Of a DNA stretch of 64,000 nucleotides, positions 2,660 through 15,694 are shown piece by piece. This DNA is from Yoonia sp. SS1-5 (GTDB lineage Bacteria; Pseudomonadota; Alphaproteobacteria; Rhodobacterales; Rhodobacteraceae). Location of the stretch: contig NZ_CP151767.2 in NCBI RefSeq assembly GCF_038443705.2, positions 3,897,501 through 3,961,500 on the forward strand, read 5' to 3'. Each line of letters starts with the position of its first letter. Position 1 is the stretch's first letter. The notes under the pieces are model-generated. The model saw nothing but the letters and a program-made list of their open reading frames with translations. It had not been told where the DNA came from and ran no database searches. Made by a program: the position numbers and the translations under genes.

Positions 2660-2734
2660 GCCCGGGTAGCTCAGGGGTAGAGCAGTGGATTGAAAATCCT
2701 CGTGTCGGTGGTTCGATTCCGCCCCCGGGCACCA
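2660..2734 (+). tRNA. tRNA-Phe (GAA)
   Basis: A full cloverleaf with encoded CCA: acceptor GCCCGGG (2660-2666) pairs with CCCGGGC (2724-2730), D arm GCTC/GAGC, anticodon loop TTGAAAA giving anticodon GAA, and T loop GGTTCGATTCC. One T-T opposition sits in the anticodon stem. Its 3' end is the attachment site of the island that follows. Confidence 0.96.
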
Positions 2735-2751
2735 CTTAACAAGCTGATATG
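2719..2751 (+). repeat. Island attachment repeat, tRNA side
   Basis: These 33 bases, from the T-arm/acceptor end of tRNA-Phe to just past CCA, recur at 15150-15182 with a single C/T difference (CACCAC versus CATCAC). Direct repeats of a tRNA 3' end beside a tyrosine integrase are the standard signature of site-specific island integration. The tRNA stays intact on this side. Confidence 0.88.
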
Positions 2752-2765
2752 TATGTATTTTCTGC

Positions 2766-3878
2766 TCATGACTGATCCTCGTTTCGGTCAGGTTTGACGC
2801 TTTTTTGCGAAGGTTTGACACTTTCGGCCCGCCTTCGGTTCTCCTCTTCCAATGTCGCCATGGTCTCGCGGTTCTTGTCGGCAAGGTTCGCAGACCGCGA
2901 ATAGTGCCGCGCCATGGACCGTGTTTTCTGTCCCAACAGGTCCGCGATGCGGCGTTCGTCGAGGCCTGCTTCGCGCAAAGTTGTGGCGACCGTGTGCCGC
3001 AAGCCCTTGAGGGTCAGGCCTTTTTCGATAAGGCCTTCATTCTCAAGGGCGGATTTGAAACGGTGCCAGACGGTTGAAAAGCCGTTGTAAGTCCAAGCCT
3101 CTCCTCTGGAGTTGGAAAGCACCGTCTCGGCGTCGTGGTTGGGCATACGGTCCAACGCGACCTGAAGCGTCGGACTGACCGGAATCGCGACTTCTTCACC
3201 GGTCTTGCCGCGCACGCCCCAGATGGTGCCGTCATCGACCTGATCTTTTCGCAATCGAAGAGCGTCGGATGGATCGAGGCCGGTGTTCATCATCAAAGCA
3301 AGCGCAACACGCACATGAGGCTTGGCTTTGCCCAAGACGGTATCGCGTTCTTCGATAGTCCAGGGGCGGTTTGCATAGGCGCGGTCGCGTGGGCGGCGCT
3401 TCGGGATCACGTCCTTGGCGAAGTTCGCGGAGATCAACCCTTTCGGGATGTTGTAGCGAAAAACCTCGCTCAGAAGCGTCCGGACCATATTGGCCCGCCG
3501 CCAGCCTATCTTCTTCGCGGCTTTGTCGTGGATGCCAGCAATCAACGGCGTGTCAATCACATGGATCGGTGTGTCGCGGATCGGCTCAAGGAAATCAGCG
3601 CATTTGCGGTAATCGCGCCGCGTGGCTTCGGCAAGATTCTGATAGTGCTCGTTTTCGAAGTAGGACTGGATCAACCCGCCAAGCGTTCCGGCCTTTGGTG
3701 CCTTGGCCCGTTGAGCCTCAGCGATGGCACGGATCGTCTCACATTCGGCAAAGAACTCGGCGGAACCAATAGGAGCATTGGTCAGGTCAACCTTGTGGCC
3801 AGTCTCGCGATGATAGCATCGCTGCTTACCGTGCCGGTCTTTGAAAATCTTGAAACCTTTGACCCGCACCTGTGTCAT
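2766..3878 (-). CDS. Tyrosine recombinase (island integrase)
   Basis: A 370-residue phage-type integrase: an N-terminal SAM-like core-binding region (about 60-160) and a C-terminal catalytic domain. Box II reads LKGLRHTVATTLREAGL and the tail LLGQKTRSMARHYSR holds the nucleophile Tyr. Two usual residues differ: the first catalytic Arg position reads TGLDPSDAL rather than TGLR, and the box II His is Lys. Similar variants may occur in the family, so activity is not excluded. ATG at 3878 overlaps the preceding gene's TGA by one base (TGATG), so I prefer it over TTG 3881. It presumably recombines the repeats at 2719 and 15150. Confidence 0.9.
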   Translation of the reverse strand: MTQVRVKGFKIFKDRHGKQRCYHRETGHKVDLTNAPIGSAEFFAECETIRAIAEAQRAKAPKAGTLGGLIQSYFENEHYQNLAEATRRDYRKCADFLEPIRDTPIHVIDTPLIAGIHDKAAKKIGWRRANMVRTLLSEVFRYNIPKGLISANFAKDVIPKRRPRDRAYANRPWTIEERDTVLGKAKPHVRVALALMMNTGLDPSDALRLRKDQVDDGTIWGVRGKTGEEVAIPVSPTLQVALDRMPNHDAETVLSNSRGEAWTYNGFSTVWHRFKSALENEGLIEKGLTLKGLRHTVATTLREAGLDERRIADLLGQKTRSMARHYSRSANLADKNRETMATLEEENRRRAESVKPSQKSVKPDRNEDQS

Positions 3879-4114
3879 CAAAGGCGGTCCAGAATGGTTT
3901 CGCGCGTGTCGGTCACGGACCCAGACTTTACATCATCAATCCAGAGATCGAGGTCACGACGATCCCAAAGCAGCGTGCCTTGCTTCAACTCAACGGGCCT
4001 AACCGGGCAGGCCGACTTGAAGTGCTTCACAGGCAATCCGGAATAGCTCGCGGGCTCGGACTGCTTGAGCATGCGTTTGTCGAACACGCTGATATTGAGA
4101 TTGGTCGTCGCCAT
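3878..4114 (-). CDS. Small excisionase-like DNA-binding protein
   Basis: A 78-residue protein directly upstream of and coupled to the integrase. The segment LKQSEPASYSGLPVKHFKSA followed by LLWDRRDLDLWIDD has the form of MerR/Xis-type winged-helix proteins, where a short helix-turn-helix is followed by a basic wing and a D-x-W-I helix. Such proteins usually act as recombination directionality factors or regulators of the integrase. The assignment rests on this pattern and on position only. Confidence 0.6.
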   Translation of the reverse strand: MATTNLNISVFDKRMLKQSEPASYSGLPVKHFKSACPVRPVELKQGTLLWDRRDLDLWIDDVKSGSVTDTRETILDRL

Positions 4115-4473: not shown

Positions 4474-4896
4474 ATGCCGCAGGACAATAGGTCGGTTTTC
4501 GCTTCTATGGGCGCGCGGCTCGCAATCGCGCGAAATGAAGTTGGCCTAACACAAACAGCCATGGCAGAGGCAATTGGCGTCTCCCATCGTGCCTATCACA
4601 GCTATGAAAAGGGCCAGCGGGGTTTGCCGGTCGAGGCCCTTGTGGCGATAGCGGATCGGTTTGAAGTGGACGCGGCGTGGATATTGCTTGGAACCAAAGC
4701 TGTCCGCGTGGCGCATGACTTCGAGGCTCTGAAGCAGATCGAGACTTCGCTCGATCAACACCTGAATGAAGAAGACATCAAAATAAAGAGTGAAAAGCGC
4801 GGCGCAATCGTCGCGCGTTGGTACCAGTCGCATGTCGAGGGACGGGAAGTTACGGATGATGACGTTCACACTTGGATCGAACTCGTAAGGGAGTAA
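4474..4896 (+). CDS. XRE-family transcriptional regulator
   Basis: A 140-residue protein with a Cro/CI helix-turn-helix at about residues 12-66: GARLAIARNEVGLTQTAMAEA, then IGVSHRAYHSYEKGQRGLP and VEALVAIADRFEVDAAWIL. The C-terminal half is charged and carries no recognised peptidase or sensor domain. It is divergent from the excisionase-integrase operon, the typical place of an island repressor, and is followed after 4 bases by a small membrane gene now split by an IS. The start ATG 4474 lacks a strong ribosome-binding site. Confidence 0.8.
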   Translation: MPQDNRSVFASMGARLAIARNEVGLTQTAMAEAIGVSHRAYHSYEKGQRGLPVEALVAIADRFEVDAAWILLGTKAVRVAHDFEALKQIETSLDQHLNEEDIKIKSEKRGAIVARWYQSHVEGREVTDDDVHTWIELVRE

Positions 4897-4985: not shown

Positions 4986-6165
4986 TGTAAAACACACGAC
5001 TTGATCTGACATTTCTGCTCTTCTGGAGCGCAATCAAGGAGTGTCGATCAATGACAAGTATTCAAGAGAAGATCATCAAGCCGAAGCTGGGGCTGTTGGA
5101 ACTGGCCAAACAGCTCGGAAGCGTGTCGCAGGCCTGCAAAGTGATGGGTTATTCGCGGGACAGCTTTTACCGGTTCAGAGAACTTTACGATCAGGGTGGC
5201 GAAGAAGCCCTGATGGATCTCAGCCGCCGCAAGCCGGTGATGAAAAACCGCGTGCCAGAACATGTCGAGAAGGCGGTCATCGAACTGGCCATCGACAACC
5301 CGGCTCTGGGTCAGAAACGGGCGTCGTGGGAGCTGCAGCAGAAAGGCATCATGGTGTCATCGTCGGGCGTCCGGTCGATCTGGCTGCGTAATGATCTGGA
5401 AACCATGAAAAAGCGCCTCAAGGCCCTGGAGGCCCGTGCCGCCCAAGAGGGTATCTTGCTCACCGAGGATCAGTTGGCCGCGCTGGAAAAAGCCAAGGCC
5501 AAGAAAGAAGCCCATGGCGAGATCGAGAGCCACCACCCTGGCTATCTGGGCAGCCAGGACACCTATTATGTGGGCACAATGAAGGGCGTCGGACGCATTT
5601 ATCAACAGACCTTTGTCGATACCTATGCCCGCGTGGCGATCTGCAAGCTCTACACTGAAAAGACGGCAATCACCGCGGCCGACTTGCTGAACGACCGCGT
5701 GATCCCGTTCTTTGCAGAGCATGAGATCAGCCTGCTGCGCGTCCTGACAGACCGGGGCACGGAATACTGTGGCAAGGTCGAGAACCACGCCTACCAGCTT
5801 TATCTGGCCGTCGAGGACGTGGACCACACCCGAACCAAGGCCAATTCTCCGCAAACAAACGGCATCTGCGAGCGGTTCCATCGCACCATCAAGGATGAGT
5901 TCTACGACATCGCATTCCGCAAGAAACTGTATCGGTCAGTCGAAGAGTTGCAGGCCGATCTGGATGCGTGGCTGGCAAAGTACAACGAACAGCGGCCACA
6001 TTCGGGACGTCACTGCTATGGCAAAACACCTATGCAGACCTTCCGCGAAACGCTACACATCGCTGTCGAGAAGACGATCAAAACGCACGACCAATCGGAC
6101 AGTGCGCAACCCGTTCTCAGCGTCGCAAGCTGAGATGTCCGTCAGATCAAGTCTGAAGTTTTACA
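4986..6165 (+). mobile_element. IS481-type insertion sequence, copy 1
   Basis: A 1180-bp element with ends starting TGTAAAAC; the inner parts of both ends share ACTTGATCTGAC. It is flanked by a 7-bp target duplication CTTAAGC (4979-4985 and 6166-6172). It carries one transposase gene and is identical in length and protein sequence to copies 2 and 3, so spread was recent. The single DDE reading frame, TGT...ACA ends and size fit the IS481 family. Confidence 0.92.
5051..6133 (+). CDS. IS481-family transposase (copy 1)
   Basis: A 360-residue DDE transposase. The N-terminal helix-turn-helix (LAKQLGSVSQACKVMGYSRD) recognises the ends; the rve-type integrase core has the first Asp in the GSQDTYYVGTMKG region, the second in LTDRGTEYCG and the Glu in SPQTNGICERFHRTIKDEF, followed by the KYNEQRPHSGRHCYGKTP box common to this family. 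The start at 5051 follows AGGAG by 12 bases. Long open frames on the opposite strand inside the element are coding shadows. Confidence 0.93.
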   Translation: MTSIQEKIIKPKLGLLELAKQLGSVSQACKVMGYSRDSFYRFRELYDQGGEEALMDLSRRKPVMKNRVPEHVEKAVIELAIDNPALGQKRASWELQQKGIMVSSSGVRSIWLRNDLETMKKRLKALEARAAQEGILLTEDQLAALEKAKAKKEAHGEIESHHPGYLGSQDTYYVGTMKGVGRIYQQTFVDTYARVAICKLYTEKTAITAADLLNDRVIPFFAEHEISLLRVLTDRGTEYCGKVENHAYQLYLAVEDVDHTRTKANSPQTNGICERFHRTIKDEFYDIAFRKKLYRSVEELQADLDAWLAKYNEQRPHSGRHCYGKTPMQTFRETLHIAVEKTIKTHDQSDSAQPVLSVAS

Positions 6166-6456
6166 CTTAAGCTGATCGAAATGACCTTCTTTGCAGCATG
6201 CATCTTATATTTGATTGGCTTTTCCCAGCTCCAGTTCTTTGACTTTAGGGACGGAGTGACCTGGCTCACGGGAGCCCAAATCTTGCTAGTGGCAATCGCT
6301 GGGTTGCTGGTGCCAATCTTGATCGGTTCTTTCGTTACAATCCATCTAACGAAGCGGCGTCTCGAGAGCTCCTTGTTGCAGTCTGGCTGATTGAGAAACA
6401 AGGCGCTTGGTGTCACAGACCATTTCATGCTTTAAATCACTAAAAAACAGGCGAGA

Positions 6457-7605
6457 ATGTTCGATAGTAACCAAATGGGACAACGGCCAACGGCCGTCGA
6501 CTTGTTCGCTGGCGCGGGTGGGTTCTCTCTTGGTGCAATCAGATCAGGTTTCGAGGTTAAGTTCGCTGTCGAGAACGATAAATTCGCTGTTCAAACTTAT
6601 AAACGGAACATTTTCAATGAGTCCGGCGTGAGCAATCCTGTTGTACTCGACGGCAGTATACTTGAGTACGATCCCACAGAAGTTGCGGACTTTCACTTCC
6701 AAGATCGTTCATGCGATTTGGTGCTGGGCGGTCCTCCGTGTCAGGGATTTTCTACACACAGAATTCTGAATGCTGGCGTAAACGACCCACGCAATGAGCT
6801 AGTTCTTGCATACTTTGATTTCGTCAAAGCACTAAAGCCTAAAGTTTTCCTAATGGAGAACGTTCCTGGTATTTTGTGGGACCGTCACAGGCCTTACTTG
6901 GACAAGTTTTATGCCGAAGGCGCAAGGGCTGGCTATGATGTGCGTCAGCCAATTGTCCTCGATGCGCGTGATTTCGGTGTGCCACAAAGGAGAAAACGCG
7001 TTTTCGTGCTGGGTGTTCGATGCGATGTGAATGTCCCACAAGAGTTTTCTTGGCCGTCACGGCAAACGCACTGCGATCCGGCGAAAGTGATCGATAGTTC
7101 TGAGCCTTGGGTATCTTGTAGCCACGTGTTCGATCCGACGTCTGAAAACGATACAAACAACATACACATGAACCATGGGGCCGAGCTTATCCAAGCCTTC
7201 AAAAACACACCCATTAATGGTGGTAGCAGAAAAGACTCTGGGAGGCTGCTAGCATGTCACAAGGGCCATGATGGTCATAAAGACGTCTACGGTCGAATAG
7301 ATCCTAGCAAACCTGCGCCCACGATGACCACCGCGTGCATCAACCCGTCGAAGGGCCGATTTGTCCATCCAACTGAGCATCATGGAATCACCGTAAGGCA
7401 GGCCGCGAGAATCCAAACGTTTCCTGATCACTTTGTGTTTGAAGGCGGCCTGACTGCCGCAGGGCGTCAAATTGGCAACGCCGTACCCATCGAACTGGGC
7501 AGAGTTCTGACCAGTGAAATCATGAAAAATCTGATTGTGAGCGATTCAAGAAGGCTGGGTGTTGCAGGAACAGATTTCGAGCCAGCTCAAAGAAACGAAT
7601 TTTAA
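6457..7605 (+). CDS. DNA (cytosine-5)-methyltransferase
   Basis: A complete 382-residue C5 methyltransferase that transfers a methyl group from S-adenosylmethionine to cytosine in a specific DNA site. All main motifs are visible: I DLFAGAGGFSLG (15-26), II ENDKFAVQTY, IV GGPPCQGFS with catalytic Cys95, VI MENVPG (133-138), VIII QRRKRVFVLG (177-186), IX RQAARIQTFPDHF and X QIGNAVP (338-344). The region about 195-310 is the target-recognition part; the site recognised cannot be read. Its TAA overlaps the ATPase start (TAATG), so the two are coupled. Base use is more A/T-rich than the chromosome. No restriction endonuclease gene is adjacent. Confidence 0.95.
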   Translation: MFDSNQMGQRPTAVDLFAGAGGFSLGAIRSGFEVKFAVENDKFAVQTYKRNIFNESGVSNPVVLDGSILEYDPTEVADFHFQDRSCDLVLGGPPCQGFSTHRILNAGVNDPRNELVLAYFDFVKALKPKVFLMENVPGILWDRHRPYLDKFYAEGARAGYDVRQPIVLDARDFGVPQRRKRVFVLGVRCDVNVPQEFSWPSRQTHCDPAKVIDSSEPWVSCSHVFDPTSENDTNNIHMNHGAELIQAFKNTPINGGSRKDSGRLLACHKGHDGHKDVYGRIDPSKPAPTMTTACINPSKGRFVHPTEHHGITVRQAARIQTFPDHFVFEGGLTAAGRQIGNAVPIELGRVLTSEIMKNLIVSDSRRLGVAGTDFEPAQRNEF

Positions 7606-10055
7606 TGATCGAAACACAAGCATTCAGAACCCAAGCACGGACAGTCGACCATTTGGGGCGAGAGCAGATTGCGGATTGCCCCACCGCTGTTTCGGAGTTG
7701 TGGAAGAATGCCTATGATGCATATGCTCGGAACGTAAGTCTCCATATATTTGATGACGCTGAACCTGTGGCGGCTATCTTCGATGATGGCCACGGAATGA
7801 GCTACGAAGAGTTTCTCGACCGGTGGCTAGTGATTGGCACCGACTCGAAGTTTGAGAAAGAGGTGTCTGACGAGAAAGACAGGGACGGCCTAAAAAAACG
7901 CTCGAAACAGGGACAGAAAGGCATCGGGCGTTTGTCTTCAGCCAATCTTGGGCCTTTGCTGCTGGTTGTAAGCAAACGGAAAGGCGAGAGCTTTGTCGCA
8001 GCGCTTCTAGATTGGAGGATCTTTGAGAACCCGTACTTGGTCCTGTCAGACATTCAAATTCCAGTAACACGGTTCGAAAAAAAGAGCGAACTTGGTCAAT
8101 TGCTTCCTGGGCTGTTTGATAGCCTTACAGACAACCTATGGGGGTCGCCTGCTGAGCCTGAGCGAGCAAAGCGCTTGAAGGTCGCTTGGGAAACATATGA
8201 CCGGATTATGCAGGAGTCTGATCCAGAAATTGAGGCTCCATCCAACCGAATAGCCGGTACGATCATCAACGCGGTATTCGAAGATAAGCATTTTGAACCT
8301 TGGTCGGTTTGGAAAGGTGAAAAGGAGCACGGAACTGCACTTATCGTCTCTGAGATCAACTACGATCTTAGAGCTCAGTTGCCTTCGATCGAGCCTGATG
8401 GAAATGTTGACAAAATAAGAGAGGCCTTTTTCTCGACGTTGTCTGCCTTTACCGACCCCTATGTTGATCCAGATTCCAATGAACACAATGCTTTCGACCC
8501 TGATTTTACCTATGAGGTGAAAACTTGGGTTGGTGAAATCGCAAAGCCCGTCGTCGAGGACGAACGAGATGTCATAAACCGGGCGGTTACCGAAGAACTA
8601 GAGCATGTCTTATCGGGAAATGTTGATGCTGATGGCGTCTTTCGTGGGCAGGTGAAAGCCTTTGGGGAATGGCGCAAACTCGGTTCCGACTATGTCATCT
8701 ACCCACCGAAAGACTTCAAGCTGCCTAAGGGTCCTACAACTTATGTGGGACCATTTAGCATTCACGTCGCAACATATGAACGGATCAGAAAGAACTCGAA
8801 TTTGTCCGATGCGGACTGGGCTCAGTTCGAGTCGCTTGCAGATCAACACGGTGGATTCCTGCTGTTTCGAAATGGCCTCAGGGTGCTACCCTACGGTCGC
8901 GTCGACAATGATTTCTTTCAAATCGAAACCAATCGCAGCATCAACGCTGGCCGGGAATACTGGAACGCACGCCGGATGTTTGGTCGGGTGGCGATTTCTA
9001 GAGAAAAGAACCCAAACCTTCGAGACAAGGCTGGCCGAGAAGGGTTTATTGACAACCGCAGTGCGAAAGCGCTGCGAGCTTTGGTAATGAATATTCTCAA
9101 GCGTGCGGCCTATGAATATTTCGGGAGCAACTCAAGCCTACGCAAGGAGATATTGCCAGAGATACAAGCGAGAAACCTCGCTGAAAAAGCCGAGGCCGAG
9201 CGGCGAGAGCTTGCGAAGAAGAACGCCCAGAAGTTTCGTGGCCGGCTAAAGAAGGCCTTGCCGGCTCTCATGGACTTGTATGAGAGCACAAGCCAGGTTG
9301 TGACGGAAACATCGATTGAGAGCCAACAACAGCTTGAGGATGCACAAGCAACAATTGACAGGTTGAGCGAGCGCTTGAGCGATCTTAGGGTAACGGGAGC
9401 TCCATCTAGGCTTGGGTCGGCAGAAGAGGACTATCGACGTTTCAGAACTTTGTTTGCCGAAATGCAGGAACGTCTCAAACTGTTAGAGGACAAGCGGGCG
9501 ACGGCTATTGAGAAAATCAATCCTGCAAAGCCCGAAGAGCTTGCGCAAAAGCAGTTGAACAGTCATGCGAGCCGGCTTCAATCGCGACTTAGAAGCTGGC
9601 GCAAATCTATAGACGAGCTGCAAGGTTCAGAACGAGATCGTGTGAACGCTCTCTTCGACGAGCGCAACAAAATCTTTCATTCGCTGGCAATGCCACTTGT
9701 TGAGCAAGTTCGATTGAAACGCCTCGGTCTAGACGAAGCGCTCGAACAAATGAAGCTGTTGCAGGCGAAGCTGAACACGGAGAACGAAGACACCTTTCAA
9801 TCCTATTTGGACACACTCGAGGTCATGAGCGAGAACATCAACATTGAGCTCGTTGCACGACAAGGTATAGCGGACAACGCGGCCCTGCGCGACGACCTCA
9901 ATCAGTTAAATCAGGTAGCACAGTTGGGCGTAACGGTCGAAATTTTGGGGCATGAATTCAGTAGCAATGAGCGCATGGTCCGGGAAGGCATTCGACAAAT
10001 CAAAGCAGCTGGAGAAGTACCTGGAACTCACTTAGTTGTAAAACTTCAGACTTGA
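7605..10055 (+). CDS. GHKL-fold ATPase with kinase-like dimerisation segment, 3'-truncated by IS
   Basis: About 810 native residues remain; the final VKLQT comes from the IS end. The N-terminus is an HSP90/MutL/histidine-kinase-type ATP site: N box ELWKNAYDA (31-39), G1 DDGHGM (60-65) and G2 GQKGIGRLSS (103-112). Long coiled-coil-like segments follow (about 520-760), then QLGVTVEILGHEF with His783, which looks like the H-box of a histidine-kinase dimerisation domain. A second catalytic ATP domain would be expected next, but the sequence is cut at 10036 by IS copy 2. It is coupled to the cytosine methyltransferase. GHKL ATPases are known partners of restriction-modification systems; that role here is inference. 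Confidence 0.8.
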   Translation: MIETQAFRTQARTVDHLGREQIADCPTAVSELWKNAYDAYARNVSLHIFDDAEPVAAIFDDGHGMSYEEFLDRWLVIGTDSKFEKEVSDEKDRDGLKKRSKQGQKGIGRLSSANLGPLLLVVSKRKGESFVAALLDWRIFENPYLVLSDIQIPVTRFEKKSELGQLLPGLFDSLTDNLWGSPAEPERAKRLKVAWETYDRIMQESDPEIEAPSNRIAGTIINAVFEDKHFEPWSVWKGEKEHGTALIVSEINYDLRAQLPSIEPDGNVDKIREAFFSTLSAFTDPYVDPDSNEHNAFDPDFTYEVKTWVGEIAKPVVEDERDVINRAVTEELEHVLSGNVDADGVFRGQVKAFGEWRKLGSDYVIYPPKDFKLPKGPTTYVGPFSIHVATYERIRKNSNLSDADWAQFESLADQHGGFLLFRNGLRVLPYGRVDNDFFQIETNRSINAGREYWNARRMFGRVAISREKNPNLRDKAGREGFIDNRSAKALRALVMNILKRAAYEYFGSNSSLRKEILPEIQARNLAEKAEAERRELAKKNAQKFRGRLKKALPALMDLYESTSQVVTETSIESQQQLEDAQATIDRLSERLSDLRVTGAPSRLGSAEEDYRRFRTLFAEMQERLKLLEDKRATAIEKINPAKPEELAQKQLNSHASRLQSRLRSWRKSIDELQGSERDRVNALFDERNKIFHSLAMPLVEQVRLKRLGLDEALEQMKLLQAKLNTENEDTFQSYLDTLEVMSENINIELVARQGIADNAALRDDLNQLNQVAQLGVTVEILGHEFSSNERMVREGIRQIKAAGEVPGTHLVVKLQT

Positions 10056-11216
10056 TCTGACGGACATCTCAGCTTGCGACGCTGAGAACGGGTTGCGCAC
10101 TGTCCGATTGGTCGTGCGTTTTGATCGTCTTCTCGACAGCGATGTGTAGCGTTTCGCGGAAGGTCTGCATAGGTGTTTTGCCATAGCAGTGACGTCCCGA
10201 ATGTGGCCGCTGTTCGTTGTACTTTGCCAGCCACGCATCCAGATCGGCCTGCAACTCTTCGACTGACCGATACAGTTTCTTGCGGAATGCGATGTCGTAG
10301 AACTCATCCTTGATGGTGCGATGGAACCGCTCGCAGATGCCGTTTGTTTGCGGAGAATTGGCCTTGGTTCGGGTGTGGTCCACGTCCTCGACGGCCAGAT
10401 AAAGCTGGTAGGCGTGGTTCTCGACCTTGCCACAGTATTCCGTGCCCCGGTCTGTCAGGACGCGCAGCAGGCTGATCTCATGCTCTGCAAAGAACGGGAT
10501 CACGCGGTCGTTCAGCAAGTCGGCCGCGGTGATTGCCGTCTTTTCAGTGTAGAGCTTGCAGATCGCCACGCGGGCATAGGTATCGACAAAGGTCTGTTGA
10601 TAAATGCGTCCGACGCCCTTCATTGTGCCCACATAATAGGTGTCCTGGCTGCCCAGATAGCCAGGGTGGTGGCTCTCGATCTCGCCATGGGCTTCTTTCT
10701 TGGCCTTGGCTTTTTCCAGCGCGGCCAACTGATCCTCGGTGAGCAAGATACCCTCTTGGGCGGCACGGGCCTCCAGGGCCTTGAGGCGCTTTTTCATGGT
10801 TTCCAGATCATTACGCAGCCAGATCGACCGGACGCCCGACGATGACACCATGATGCCTTTCTGCTGCAGCTCCCACGACGCCCGTTTCTGACCCAGAGCC
10901 GGGTTGTCGATGGCCAGTTCGATGACCGCCTTCTCGACATGTTCTGGCACGCGGTTTTTCATCACCGGCTTGCGGCGGCTGAGATCCATCAGGGCTTCTT
11001 CGCCACCCTGATCGTAAAGTTCTCTGAACCGGTAAAAGCTGTCCCGCGAATAACCCATCACTTTGCAGGCCTGCGACACGCTTCCGAGCTGTTTGGCCAG
11101 TTCCAACAGCCCCAGCTTCGGCTTGATGATCTTCTCTTGAATACTTGTCATTGATCGACACTCCTTGATTGCGCTCCAGAAGAGCAGAAATGTCAGATCA
11201 AGTCGTGTGTTTTACA
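10037..11216 (-). mobile_element. IS481-type insertion sequence, copy 2, without target duplication
   Basis: Same 1180-bp element in reverse orientation. Its flanks do not match: ACTTAGT (10030-10036) on the left and TCTGAAG (11217-11223) on the right, whereas copies 1 and 3 each have perfect 7-bp duplications. Loss of the duplication is expected when two copies recombine or an IS makes an adjacent deletion. The ATPase gene ends at the left border and no continuation is found on the right. Confidence 0.92.
10069..11151 (-). CDS. IS481-family transposase (copy 2)
   Basis: A 360-residue protein identical in sequence to the transposases at 5051 and 14002, with the same DDE core (QDTYYVG, LTDRGTEYCG, NGICERFHRT). 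It is read against the direction of the ATPase gene that the element truncates. Confidence 0.93.
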   Translation of the reverse strand: MTSIQEKIIKPKLGLLELAKQLGSVSQACKVMGYSRDSFYRFRELYDQGGEEALMDLSRRKPVMKNRVPEHVEKAVIELAIDNPALGQKRASWELQQKGIMVSSSGVRSIWLRNDLETMKKRLKALEARAAQEGILLTEDQLAALEKAKAKKEAHGEIESHHPGYLGSQDTYYVGTMKGVGRIYQQTFVDTYARVAICKLYTEKTAITAADLLNDRVIPFFAEHEISLLRVLTDRGTEYCGKVENHAYQLYLAVEDVDHTRTKANSPQTNGICERFHRTIKDEFYDIAFRKKLYRSVEELQADLDAWLAKYNEQRPHSGRHCYGKTPMQTFRETLHIAVEKTIKTHDQSDSAQPVLSVAS

Positions 11217-11662: not shown

Positions 11663-12175
11663 TCACTCAACCGTCCAACCACGCCCGTAGCCCTTCCAGA
11701 CCATCCCCATCGCGGTCATCCGCTCATAAAGTGAACCGCCATACGTGTACCTTGCGGGTTCCGGTCGGCACTCCAGTTTATCAACAACTTCGCCATTGCG
11801 CGTCACCGTGATCCACCCGAAGTGCGTCACAGACGGAATGCCGTCGTCGAACGGCTGGGTCACAAACAGACTGGCCACCTCGTAGGCATAGTCGCCACTG
11901 CGAAATGTGATCGAACCCGATGTCGGAGCAGGTGCGTCCCAGGGATGATAGTCCGCGTCCGCAATCGGTTCAGAAAGAAAAAGCTGCGGCGTTTCCCCCG
12001 GCACCCCATAGCTATAGGTCAAGTTGAAATCATCAAAGCACACCCGCAAAACCGTGTTCCTGCCTGCGATGTCGCAAAACGTGAATGGATCGGACGCAGG
12101 TGCACAATCAGCGGTGGCTGTGCTGGCCCAAGGCCCCAGCACGATGGAGGTCACAACCTTTTTGTTAAATTGCAT
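11663..12175 (-). CDS. Secreted Cys-containing protein, short paralogue
   Basis: About 170 residues with a signal peptide (MQFNKKVVTSIVLGPWASTA, then TA and DCAP). ATG 12175 is chosen because AAGGA lies 8 bases upstream; ATG 12184 would overlap that site. The mature part shares a clear pattern with the gene at 12225: Cys-x7-F-x-x-C, GR-x-T, a C-F-D-D motif, Y-x-Y-G-x3-GETP, S-E-x-I-A, D-Y-x-P-W, then FGWI and L-E-C. Four conserved Cys suggest disulfides in the periplasm or outside. No known family recognised. It sits 49 bases downstream of its paralogue on the same strand. Confidence 0.65.
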   Translation of the reverse strand: MQFNKKVVTSIVLGPWASTATADCAPASDPFTFCDIAGRNTVLRVCFDDFNLTYSYGVPGETPQLFLSEPIADADYHPWDAPAPTSGSITFRSGDYAYEVASLFVTQPFDDGIPSVTHFGWITVTRNGEVVDKLECRPEPARYTYGGSLYERMTAMGMVWKGYGRGWTVE

Positions 12176-12224
12176 CAAGTACATCCTTGGATCAGTTCGG
12201 CCTACAGATACCGCAGGTCCGAAG

Positions 12225-13199
12225 TTACGGCGAAATACTGACAAACTGAATGCTCTCCACACGCTTGTCGGGCCCAAAGGAAATCATCGCCTCCCAATTT
12301 GCAAAGTCTCGTGGTGCTTCGGTGCAGACGGGGATGTTGAAGTCACCCACGTCAGGCGAAGCACCGCCAGGCACATCTCCCAGGATCGCGATGACTTCGC
12401 CCCGTGTCAGGCCGACGCGCAGCCCCGACGGCATGTCCCACATCGGGTTTATGGAGGTCATCCGAACCACGAGGCCATCAAGGACATCAATGTCCAGGCC
12501 ATCTGCCGTCACACGGTCAATCTCGCGACCATCGGGTAAGACCACGCCACTAGCTTCGGGTGATCCAAGTTTATGCAGCGTTGCCACTCGGTCCGCCATC
12601 CCGACACCGCCCAGCATAAATTCGGGGCCCACCAAGCACCCGCCATTGGGGTCGGGATACAGGGCCGGGGTTTGGGCTGCGACATTCCCCACCCAAGTTT
12701 TGGAATTGTCGTCCCAGTCAAAGCCTTCCGCGACTTTTACATCATGAATCCCACCGCCAAACCCATAGCCCACGGTGTCGGGGATACATTCAAGCCTGCT
12801 GAGGCTTTGCCCGTTCTGGGCCACGTCGATCCAGCCGAAGCGTCGCGGACCAAGTTCCATTTCTTCCTCAGAAAAGGGCCGTTCAAATCCGTCGCCGACC
12901 TCATAGCTGAACTCGCCGTTGTAGAACGTGATGGTCTCACTGATCGCCGTGCCCAAACCATTCCATGGCTCATAGTCCACTTGTGCAATCGTCTCTGATA
13001 TGGTCAGGTCTGGCGTTTCACCAATCGGTCCGTAGTGATAAGTTGCAACCGCATCGTCAAAGCAGAGAAAGACCTCGGTGCTCCGCCCTTCGATTTGGCA
13101 AGACGTGAAAGCTTCCTGTCCCGCAGGACAACCCGCTTGCGCTATGGTCCCGAAAAGGATGCCGCACGTGGCAAAGAAAGCCCCCAGGGTTCGTTTCAA
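12225..13199 (-). CDS. Secreted Cys-containing protein, long paralogue with extra C-terminal domain
   Basis: About 324 residues. The start is TTG at 13199, supported by AAGGGA six bases upstream; a TTG at 13220 has no ribosome site. A signal peptide ends near GTIAQA-GCP. Residues about 25-165 match the short paralogue (CFDD, YHYGPIGETP, SETIAQVDYEPW, FGWIDV, RLEC). The remaining ~150 residues form a second domain with GLRVGLTRGEVIAILGDVPG, a pattern loosely like the helix-loop of small outer-membrane BamE/SmpA-type folds, plus two Cys. Function unknown; the pair looks like a duplication with domain gain or loss. Confidence 0.65.
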   Translation of the reverse strand: MKRTLGAFFATCGILFGTIAQAGCPAGQEAFTSCQIEGRSTEVFLCFDDAVATYHYGPIGETPDLTISETIAQVDYEPWNGLGTAISETITFYNGEFSYEVGDGFERPFSEEEMELGPRRFGWIDVAQNGQSLSRLECIPDTVGYGFGGGIHDVKVAEGFDWDDNSKTWVGNVAAQTPALYPDPNGGCLVGPEFMLGGVGMADRVATLHKLGSPEASGVVLPDGREIDRVTADGLDIDVLDGLVVRMTSINPMWDMPSGLRVGLTRGEVIAILGDVPGGASPDVGDFNIPVCTEAPRDFANWEAMISFGPDKRVESIQFVSISP

Positions 13200-13281
13200 A
13201 TCAATGTCCCTTCCGTCCAAAAAGTTATCTTATCAGGCCAACTTTGTGATGACCTAAGTGTTGCAGTCCTTGCGGGCTGGT

Positions 13282-13936: not shown

Positions 13937-15116
13937 TGTAAAACACACGACTTGATCTGACATTTCTGCTCTTCTGGAGCGCAATCAAGGAGTGTCGATC
14001 AATGACAAGTATTCAAGAGAAGATCATCAAGCCGAAGCTGGGGCTGTTGGAACTGGCCAAACAGCTCGGAAGCGTGTCGCAGGCCTGCAAAGTGATGGGT
14101 TATTCGCGGGACAGCTTTTACCGGTTCAGAGAACTTTACGATCAGGGTGGCGAAGAAGCCCTGATGGATCTCAGCCGCCGCAAGCCGGTGATGAAAAACC
14201 GCGTGCCAGAACATGTCGAGAAGGCGGTCATCGAACTGGCCATCGACAACCCGGCTCTGGGTCAGAAACGGGCGTCGTGGGAGCTGCAGCAGAAAGGCAT
14301 CATGGTGTCATCGTCGGGCGTCCGGTCGATCTGGCTGCGTAATGATCTGGAAACCATGAAAAAGCGCCTCAAGGCCCTGGAGGCCCGTGCCGCCCAAGAG
14401 GGTATCTTGCTCACCGAGGATCAGTTGGCCGCGCTGGAAAAAGCCAAGGCCAAGAAAGAAGCCCATGGCGAGATCGAGAGCCACCACCCTGGCTATCTGG
14501 GCAGCCAGGACACCTATTATGTGGGCACAATGAAGGGCGTCGGACGCATTTATCAACAGACCTTTGTCGATACCTATGCCCGCGTGGCGATCTGCAAGCT
14601 CTACACTGAAAAGACGGCAATCACCGCGGCCGACTTGCTGAACGACCGCGTGATCCCGTTCTTTGCAGAGCATGAGATCAGCCTGCTGCGCGTCCTGACA
14701 GACCGGGGCACGGAATACTGTGGCAAGGTCGAGAACCACGCCTACCAGCTTTATCTGGCCGTCGAGGACGTGGACCACACCCGAACCAAGGCCAATTCTC
14801 CGCAAACAAACGGCATCTGCGAGCGGTTCCATCGCACCATCAAGGATGAGTTCTACGACATCGCATTCCGCAAGAAACTGTATCGGTCAGTCGAAGAGTT
14901 GCAGGCCGATCTGGATGCGTGGCTGGCAAAGTACAACGAACAGCGGCCACATTCGGGACGTCACTGCTATGGCAAAACACCTATGCAGACCTTCCGCGAA
15001 ACGCTACACATCGCTGTCGAGAAGACGATCAAAACGCACGACCAATCGGACAGTGCGCAACCCGTTCTCAGCGTCGCAAGCTGAGATGTCCGTCAGATCA
15101 AGTCTGAAGTTTTACA
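13937..15116 (+). mobile_element. IS481-type insertion sequence, copy 3
   Basis: The 1180-bp element again, with a perfect 7-bp target duplication GCTAATA (13930-13936 and 15117-15123). It sits about 35 bp inside the right attachment repeat, in non-coding DNA. Confidence 0.93.
14002..15084 (+). CDS. IS481-family transposase (copy 3)
   Basis: A 360-residue DDE transposase identical to those at 5051 and 10069. Identity of all three proteins and of element length implies recent transposition within or into the island. Confidence 0.93.
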   Translation: MTSIQEKIIKPKLGLLELAKQLGSVSQACKVMGYSRDSFYRFRELYDQGGEEALMDLSRRKPVMKNRVPEHVEKAVIELAIDNPALGQKRASWELQQKGIMVSSSGVRSIWLRNDLETMKKRLKALEARAAQEGILLTEDQLAALEKAKAKKEAHGEIESHHPGYLGSQDTYYVGTMKGVGRIYQQTFVDTYARVAICKLYTEKTAITAADLLNDRVIPFFAEHEISLLRVLTDRGTEYCGKVENHAYQLYLAVEDVDHTRTKANSPQTNGICERFHRTIKDEFYDIAFRKKLYRSVEELQADLDAWLAKYNEQRPHSGRHCYGKTPMQTFRETLHIAVEKTIKTHDQSDSAQPVLSVAS

Positions 15117-15149
15117 GCTAATATATTGATATTTATGTACAGTTAAATC

Positions 15150-15182
15150 CCGCCCCCGGGCATCACTTAACAAGCTGATATG
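15150..15182 (+). repeat. Island attachment repeat, distal side
   Basis: The second copy of the 33-bp tRNA-Phe 3'-end repeat (32 of 33 bases match 2719-2751). Similarity to the left border continues beyond it into the tail of an integrase remnant, so this may be the attachment site left by an earlier related island in tandem. Confidence 0.85.
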
Positions 15183-15199
15183 ATTTTGTTTTCCGCTCA

Positions 15200-15530
15200 T
15201 GGCTGATCTTTGTTTAGGTCAGCTTTGTTGCTTTTGGGCGAAGGTTTGACAATCGTCGCGCGGCTTTCGTTCGCTTTTTCCAATACCGCCGTGATTTTGC
15301 GGTTCTTTTCGGCCAGGATTTGCGGATCGTGAATAATACCGCGCCAAGAATGGTGCCATCTGTCCTGGAAGGTCAGCGATGCGGCGTTCAGCGAGCCCAG
15401 CTTCGCGAAGTGTGGTGGCTACCGTGTGGCCCAATCCATTGAGCGTCAGGCCTAGTGCGAACAGTCCTTCTTTCTCAAGCTTGACCTTGAAACGCTGCCA
15501 AACCGTTGTAAGCCTATGCTTCACCGACGC
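15200..15530 (-). pseudogene. Decayed integrase C-terminus of an older island
   Basis: The minus-strand translation is clearly related to the last third of the island integrase: TVWQRFKVKLEKEGLF, LTLNGLGHTVATTLREAGLA, ERRIADLPGQ and RYYSRSAN correspond to its segments. The N-terminal two thirds are missing. The key Arg of the RHT box is Gly (NGLGHT), and there is a short deletion relative to the intact gene. No convincing start remains. It lies next to its own att copy, as the intact gene does next to the tRNA. The following ~165 bases to the SDR gene hold nothing recognisable. Confidence 0.85.
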
Positions 15531-15694
15531 TGCCGGGCAACGGCCCACCCCCGGCACCCCGCAGGCTCAAACCATCAAGATGTGAGCAAACCCTTTCTTT
15601 GTTTGCGCCGCTATTGGTCCTAAAAACTTTGACGAGAGAGCCCGCATTTGCGGGTTAAGCGGGTGCGCTTTTGCTACGCGGTCAGAACGGCGGA

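Follow-up and report, generated by a model that had tools for sequence, protein, structure and literature searches.

A C5 Methyltransferase and paraMORC/HEF_HK Gene Pair in Yoonia sp. SS1-5 as a Probable Remnant of a Three-Gene Signaling Unit

Introduction

The stretch of 64,000 nucleotides from Yoonia sp. SS1-5 studied here (contig NZ_CP151767.2, positions 3,897,501 to 3,961,500; hereafter the window, meaning the whole stretch) carries a C5-cytosine methyltransferase gene that overlaps the gene for a large ATPase with a histidine-kinase-like motif. This locus raises the question of which system the two genes belong to and whether that system is still at work. An earlier note, made from the sequence alone, had read the pair as a probable defense module that could be a poorly described anti-phage system, possibly a signaling type of restriction that has lost a response-regulator or nuclease partner. 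The arrangement is in fact already described: the HEF_HK (PF19191)/Response_reg_2 (PF19192) two-component-like system was reported in silico in 2021 (Bellieny-Rabelo et al., 2021, PMC8011034). On balance, and with modest confidence, we read the gene pair as a remnant of a unit composed of a C5 methyltransferase, a paraMORC/HEF_HK sensor kinase, and a Response_reg_2 protein, the intact form of which would be a methylation-read phosphorelay with an effector at its end.

Results

Domain Composition of the Methylase-ATPase Gene Pair

The gene pair and its recognized domains are located as follows.

6457–7605, plus strand: C5-cytosine DNA methyltransferase, 382 amino acids (aa), complete open reading frame (ORF) (PF00145, E 1.9e-60)
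7605–10036, plus strand: paraMORC-type ATPase/histidine-kinase-like protein, native residues 1–810 (the ORF runs to 10055)
7683–8024, plus strand: N-terminal GHKL ATPase domain, residues 27–140 (HATPase_c_3, PF13589, E 7.3e-16)
9921–10007, plus strand: start of the HEF_HK dimerization domain, residues 773–801 (PF19191, E 1.6e-6)

The methylase ORF (6457–7605) and the ATPase ORF (7605–10055) overlap by one base within TAATG. The methylase carries the motifs GGPPCQG, ENVPG, QRRKR, and GNAVP, starting at residues 91, 134, 177, and 340, respectively; the ATPase motifs ELWKNAYDA, DDGHGM, GQKGIGR, and LGHEF start at residues 31, 60, 103, and 781. Thus, the overlap and all the ATPase motifs quoted in the earlier note are present. 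The ATPase residues E31, N35, D38, G103, G106, and G108 are invariant in 52 sequences, as is the phospho-acceptor-type histidine H783 (9951–9953). The supposed H-box is indeed the start of a kinase-like dimerization domain. In the window, this match covers only profile positions 1–29 of 67 (28.9 bits against a cut-off of 24.1), and a Pfam search of the window ATPase found no C-terminal HATPase_c domain.

The structural model of the N-terminal half of the ATPase has MORC3 as its top match; MutL is not among the 50 matches listed, which leaves a likeness to it possible, and the sequence of the GHKL domain has weak matches to MutL. The GHKL domain is joined to an S5-type transducer in a MORC-like fold, which is the architecture of the paraMORC proteins (Iyer et al., 2008, PMC2292703), and the restriction-modification context is also shared with them. 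Unlike paraMORC1 to paraMORC5, as presented in the available part of that paper, the family studied here has a C-terminal histidine-kinase half.

No nuclease domain was found in the pair by the Pfam scan, in agreement with the absence of a standard endonuclease asserted previously, and PADLOC gave no whole-system match. The PADLOC matches of the methylase comprise 63 families, all 25 listed being MTase_II, Dru, and Drm models, and those of the ATPase are two REase_II models, both across the ATPase domain. Compared with type II restriction-modification, the methyltransferase is present; no nuclease domain was found in the pair and no constant nuclease neighbor in the relatives, but the ATPase domain by itself matches REase_II models of GHKL-type restriction enzymes. 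The likeness to BbrUII/HgiDII is of this kind: residues 12–135 match NF050001 (E 2.6e-17) and residues 10–128 match the REase_II model PDLC03419 (E 5.1e-13); however, the NF050001 score of 62.6 bits falls short of the cut-off, which is 550, and the match covers about 119 of 659 profile positions (8–126). The GHKL-Shedu protein VcSduA likewise joins a GHKL ATPase to a defense output (PMC12137116, available part), but this output is a fused DUF4263 nuclease, and neither the window nor the ATPase of the closest relative has a DUF4263 match.

Loss of the ATPase End at an Insertion Sequence

Three insertion sequence (IS) copies of the IS481 family lie in or near the region of the gene pair.

4986–6165, plus strand: copy 1, 7-base-pair (bp) duplication CTTAAGC on both sides
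10037–11216, minus strand: copy 2, unequal flanks, no duplication
13937–15116, plus strand: copy 3, duplication GCTAATA on both sides

Copies 1 and 3 are clean insertions. Copies 1 and 2, in opposite orientation, enclose the methylase-ATPase pair, and the two flanks of copy 2 read CTTCAGA and ACTAAGT. The closest relative, locus L011 from an uncultured Roseicyclus, is similar in DNA (88.3% over 3789 bp) as far as 10038, where the IS starts. The ATPase is truncated, since its native coding sequence ends at 10036 and the final residues of the ORF are IS sequence.

The genome contains at least 25 IS481-family copies, each 100% identical across 1180 bp, according to a scan that scored 40 of 65 candidate places. 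Sixteen copies are flanked by identical 7-bp sequences, two have flanks that differ at the last base, and seven have unmatched flanks. The identity of the copies and the seven without a matching duplication point to a recent expansion and to more than one rearrangement, several in all. On its left side, copy 2 shares CTTCAGA with the copy at C2:1032818, which probably reflects target preference.

A search of the genome with the L011 ATPase recovered the window (residues 1–812), a divergent second system, and kinase-like places matched via the kinase part; the 3′ remainder of the window ATPase was not found elsewhere. Nor was a second receiver gene found in the genome, the sole PF19192 match of which lies in the second system. 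Since the IS flanks are unequal and the missing pieces were not found elsewhere, a rearrangement at the IS most likely removed the 3′ part, and copy 2 most likely marks the loss of both the ATPase 3′ end and the receiver gene. The flank ACTAAGT occurs on none of the other 24 copies found; lacking such a reciprocal junction among them, deletion or loss is preferred over inversion. As to relaxed selection after the truncation, the ratio of nonsynonymous to synonymous divergence (dN/dS) against L011 has low values in both genes, 0.097 and 0.084, which cannot date the break.

Because the catalytic (CA) domain of the kinase is lost and the receiver gene is gone, the signaling part in the window cannot work as in its relatives, and because the C-terminal HATPase_c is missing, we file the locus as a remnant and not as a working member of the family. 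This copy is dead, and its methylase is probably left as an orphan in the Yoonia strain. It could be argued that the truncated ATPase still functions alone, as natural architectures without a C-terminal HATPase_c exist: PMC8011034 reports that 11 of 222 proteins combine HATPase_c_3 with HEF_HK while lacking HATPase_c, and the reading frame in the window is undamaged up to the IS. Nevertheless, HEF_HK itself is cut, with 29 of 67 positions left, no receiver gene remains beside it, and the breakpoint coincides with an IS whose flanks are unequal, which makes a surviving function extremely unlikely.

Conserved Three-Gene Unit in Intact Relatives

Relatives were ascertained by the ATPase alone: six peptide patterns of the window ATPase were run against a collection in which 84,980 species are represented by a single genome each, and genes were called as the longest ORFs. 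The 63 loci obtained belong, to go by their record titles, to Proteobacteria, Acidobacteria, and Myxococcota. A receiver gene follows directly downstream on the same strand in 62 of them, the exception being L069, where a partial ATPase ends the contig. A C5 methylase lies within the stretch examined in 61 loci, 51 of which have it upstream on the same strand; it is lacking in L020, where the contig begins inside the ATPase, and in L047. Thus, the coupling of methylase and ATPase recurs, and the homologs do not occur mostly alone or without methyltransferases, the outcome that the earlier note had named as contrary to its proposal. Of the lost partners that it suggested, the response regulator is the right one; no nuclease partner is constant in the relatives.

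In L011, the ATPase has 989 aa and is 95% identical to the window protein; its domains are HATPase_c_3 (27–140), HEF_HK (773–829), and HATPase_c (878–968), and a receiver protein of about 600 aa follows. Broken-looking relatives include L064 and L072 (ATPase) and L054 (methylase). As far as the available part of PMC8011034 goes, the family shares with the HEF_HK/Response_reg_2 system the same domains in the same order, an upstream C5 methylase and, in the relatives, a downstream receiver, with Vsr or HNH_2 in some. The window copy differs from that system by lacking the HEF_HK end, the HATPase_c domain, and the receiver gene. The receiver-fold insertion, the C-terminal receiver module, and the methylase signature described below are new here, not being described in that part of the article.

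For pairwise identities across 46 loci, uncorrected for shared ancestry, the correlation coefficient is 0.965 for the kinase with the receiver, 0.757 for the kinase with the methylase, and 0.717 for the receiver with the methylase. Since the methylases of the same loci correlate less, kinase and receiver appear to move together, with the methylase exchanged more freely; the synonymous divergence between the window and L011 (0.91 for the methylase and 0.28 for the ATPase) fits this picture.

The neighborhoods contain no constant nuclease. With the three unit genes and Vsr set aside, no BLAST cluster exceeds 7 of 67 loci, and the largest, an HNH_2 family found in 7 of 67, varies in strand and distance. 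Among the 25 Pfam families listed for the neighbors are integrases (8 members), HNH_2 (7), and AspBHI-type, Fic, and HipA_C proteins (3 each), counts that come from 110 of 122 long neighboring ORFs scanned with no random control and that give no measure of defense-gene enrichment. Against PADLOC, the neighbors matched 115 families, mostly with one or two members among those listed. The receiver had no match in 50,697 phage records and matched 3 of 72,556 plasmid records.

Vsr repairs a lesion favored by C5 methylases. In 13 of 63 loci, the gene that immediately follows the receiver encodes Vsr, and 22 of 63 have a Vsr-like gene anywhere in the stretch examined. These genes, together with the weak MutL matches of the GHKL domain, would suit a repair pathway for deaminated 5-methylcytosine in which a MutL-like ATPase and Vsr fix the T:G mismatches created by the methylase. 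We regard this as very unlikely: Vsr is missing from the examined stretch of 41 of the 63 loci, repair needs no phosphorelay, and the N-terminal half of the ATPase has MORC3 as its top structural match, with MutL outside the 50 matches listed.

Receiver Protein and Its C-Terminal Module

The phospho-acceptor set of the receiver (DD, D, T/S, and K) is kept in 66, 65, 66, 64 (plus 2 with S), and 64 of 66 relatives, respectively. In the structural model, the last strand of the receiver fold is placed beyond a helical insertion. Residues 336–639 are the likely output part; this C-terminal module has invariant C489, R624, and G626, and near-invariant N453 and D490.

Searches with the receiver against Pfam, NCBIfam, and PADLOC gave nothing convincing beyond Response_reg_2; the L011 receiver has no PADLOC match, and no DNA-binding output domain was recognized. 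A Pfam scan of the C-terminal part of 52 receivers returned 15 families at E ≤ 1, led by DUF749 in one member (E 0.0038) and zf_CopZ in five (best E 0.0083); we read these and the other weak matches as chance. Sequence searches of the PDB with the receiver gave either no match or just three weak ones, to designed or helical proteins, and Foldseek with the whole receiver model found no match at E ≤ 0.001 in PDB and BFVD, which is no proof of a new C-terminal fold. A profile of the C-terminal module retrieved 22 proteins of 112–389 aa without Pfam domains, which could be fragments of these receivers.

A PemK/MazF-like barrel was considered for the C-terminal module on the basis of its strand pattern and of one viral protein matched weakly by Foldseek (rank 16, E 0.39). 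The hhalign probability against five PemK proteins was 0.05%, no better than five column-shuffled controls (0.05–0.24); with a PemK profile as thin as five sequences, the idea is unsupported rather than excluded.

The absence of a recognized DNA-binding output domain bears on the view that kinase and receiver form a two-component control of restriction-modification expression or timing, with the C-terminal module as a regulator, a speculation put forward in the available part of PMC8011034. Conserved receiver residues, the co-divergence of kinase and receiver, and the HNH_2 or Vsr genes near some copies are compatible with it; nonetheless, no constant nuclease is there to be regulated, given the HNH_2 and Vsr frequencies above, and we consider such control rather unlikely. 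Alternatively, the receiver could itself be the restriction nuclease, with an unrecognized fold switched by phosphorylation, so that a type II-like enzyme would be split into a sensor and a cutter. This would account for a unit of only three near-constant genes, none a known nuclease, and for a C-terminal module with such strongly conserved residues. Yet the invariant residues, inspected by eye, include no PD-(D/E)xK, HNH, or other metal-binding set, and with no PDB sequence match, none by Foldseek with the whole model at E ≤ 0.001, and only weak, scattered Pfam matches, we hold this alternative to be distinctly unlikely.

Signature of the Associated Methylases

The motif GHxDVYGR, located just before motif IX, occurs in 52 of the 53 loci (L007–L073) with an upstream same-strand methylase; in L054, it is found in one of two methylase fragments, and the window methylase bears it as GHKDVYGR in the alignment. 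Only 1 of 29 other high-scoring PF00145 loci from the class has the motif (L158/L170), and its operon encodes a methylase, an ATPase (990 codons open), and a receiver protein (527). A DNA-pattern scan of 299 genomes of the phylum found, besides the window, eight sites in seven genomes, six in methylase ORFs and two not; the backwards pattern matched two genomes. Five of these six methylases are followed by the ATPase, and four of the five also by a receiver, the fifth lying on a 5.2-kb contig. One of the five (L183) is the same contig as L058; for the remaining four, our set contains no close DNA match. The window methylase thus belongs, as judged from its sequence, to a recognizable group tied to the HEF_HK/Response_reg_2 system. 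All signature methylases may share one target site.

Second System and Third Methylase in the Genome

A second, divergent HEF_HK/Response_reg_2 system (L007) is located at C2:78000-97000 and comprises a kinase, a receiver of 573 aa, and an opposite-strand methylase of 354 aa, the same length as that of its relative L008. The kinase gene, with pieces around 5900–10000 of this locus, is interrupted by the same IS, here with a clean CTTTAGT duplication, and the N-terminal part of the gene runs across two frames with a stop; the methylase and receiver ORFs have normal length. In both systems of the genome, the kinase is thus broken and the methylase ORF is apparently whole. This pattern would be expected if kinase and receiver were the costly, restriction-like half; the evidence is weak, because it consists of only two events and one common IS.

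A third C5 methylase was observed on the other contig (C1:131078-132106). In its surrounding 11 kb (L171), tblastn with the ATPase and receiver of L011 and L055 detected no copy of either gene.

Genomic Island and Surroundings

The gene pair is located in an island with the following boundary features.

2660–2734, plus strand: tRNA-Phe(gaa), island attachment site (ARAGORN)
2711–2751, plus strand: left attachment-type repeat (tRNA 3′ end and next bases), repeated at 15142–15182
2766–3881, minus strand: island tyrosine integrase (PF00589, E 2.4e-16)
15142–15182, plus strand: right attachment-type repeat, 37 of 41 bases as in 2711–2751
15219–15557, minus strand: second-integrase remnant beside the right repeat (15147–15511 is 76% identical over 365 bp to 2716–3079)

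The GC content of the methylase-ATPase pair is 0.49–0.51, against 0.55–0.64 in most 1-kb blocks of the window; together with the tRNA-Phe, the integrase, and the tRNA-end repeat, this bears out the earlier description of an A/T-rich pair in an integrase-bearing tRNA island. Each of the 12 genomes of the same genus that were searched contains parts of the upstream and of the downstream flank, which in some lie on separate contigs. The tRNA-Phe region was inspected in five relatives, three of which have the exact tRNA end; there, an integrase-end-like sequence follows in L165 (by eye) and different sequence in the other two. We read the tRNA-Phe site as an insertion hotspot, with no clean empty site among the relatives looked at.

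The island also encodes an HTH_3 regulator (4474–4893, plus strand) upstream of IS copy 1, and two minus-strand ORFs (11663–12277 and 12225–13220) that look like paralogs by eye, with a shared FDD...GETP...PW pattern and no Pfam match.

Discussion

We propose the following scheme for the intact relatives of the window locus. The methylase would mark a fixed class of sites on host DNA, and the N-terminal MORC/Hsp90-like ATPase of the kinase would close on DNA, or a DNA state, without the mark. The closure signal would pass along the coiled coil to the dimerization domain, the H783 of which would be phosphorylated by the C-terminal CA domain and would pass the phosphate on to receiver residue D128. 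Output would then fall to the C-terminal module of this protein, most likely as an effector acting to halt the invader or the cell.

Several observations weigh against this scheme and the reading of the window based on it. The effector role of the C-terminal module is itself inferred. We found no experimental test of the HEF_HK/Response_reg_2 system in the literature covered, which mostly excluded subscription papers and preprints. PF19192 is rare among kin, occurring in 4 of 295 genomes of the window's family, its own included. The kinase loss in the window took place at an IS of which the genome has 25 or more copies and may be chance, not relief from toxicity. As for the methylase, the signature is missing from the upstream methylase of L009 and from 10 of 14 downstream-placed methylase ORFs (four have it, and four of the ten have GFxDVYGR instead), so that some variants use another methylase. 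Moreover, the methylase of L184 (4484–5716) carries GHxDVYGR but neighbors an AAA_15 gene and not the ATPase; it possibly has another partner or is a leftover.

We know of no restriction system that reads the methylation state through a histidine-to-aspartate phosphorelay. It is possible, though doubtful, that the intact relatives represent such restriction-type immunity, in which a MORC-like clamp would sense that one fixed cytosine mark is missing and a His-Asp relay would address an effector receiver, with no direct cutting. Equally tentative is the suggestion that the window locus and its sister locus show a decay route of this kind of system, the kinase being broken and the methylase kept.

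The window copy itself is a case of ordinary decay, and no further nuclease gene is constant in the unit to which it points. For the family, the comparison pinpoints H783 and D128 as the residues of the presumed relay and receiver residues 336–639 as the likely output part, and the GHxDVYGR methylase signature can be used for finding further copies.

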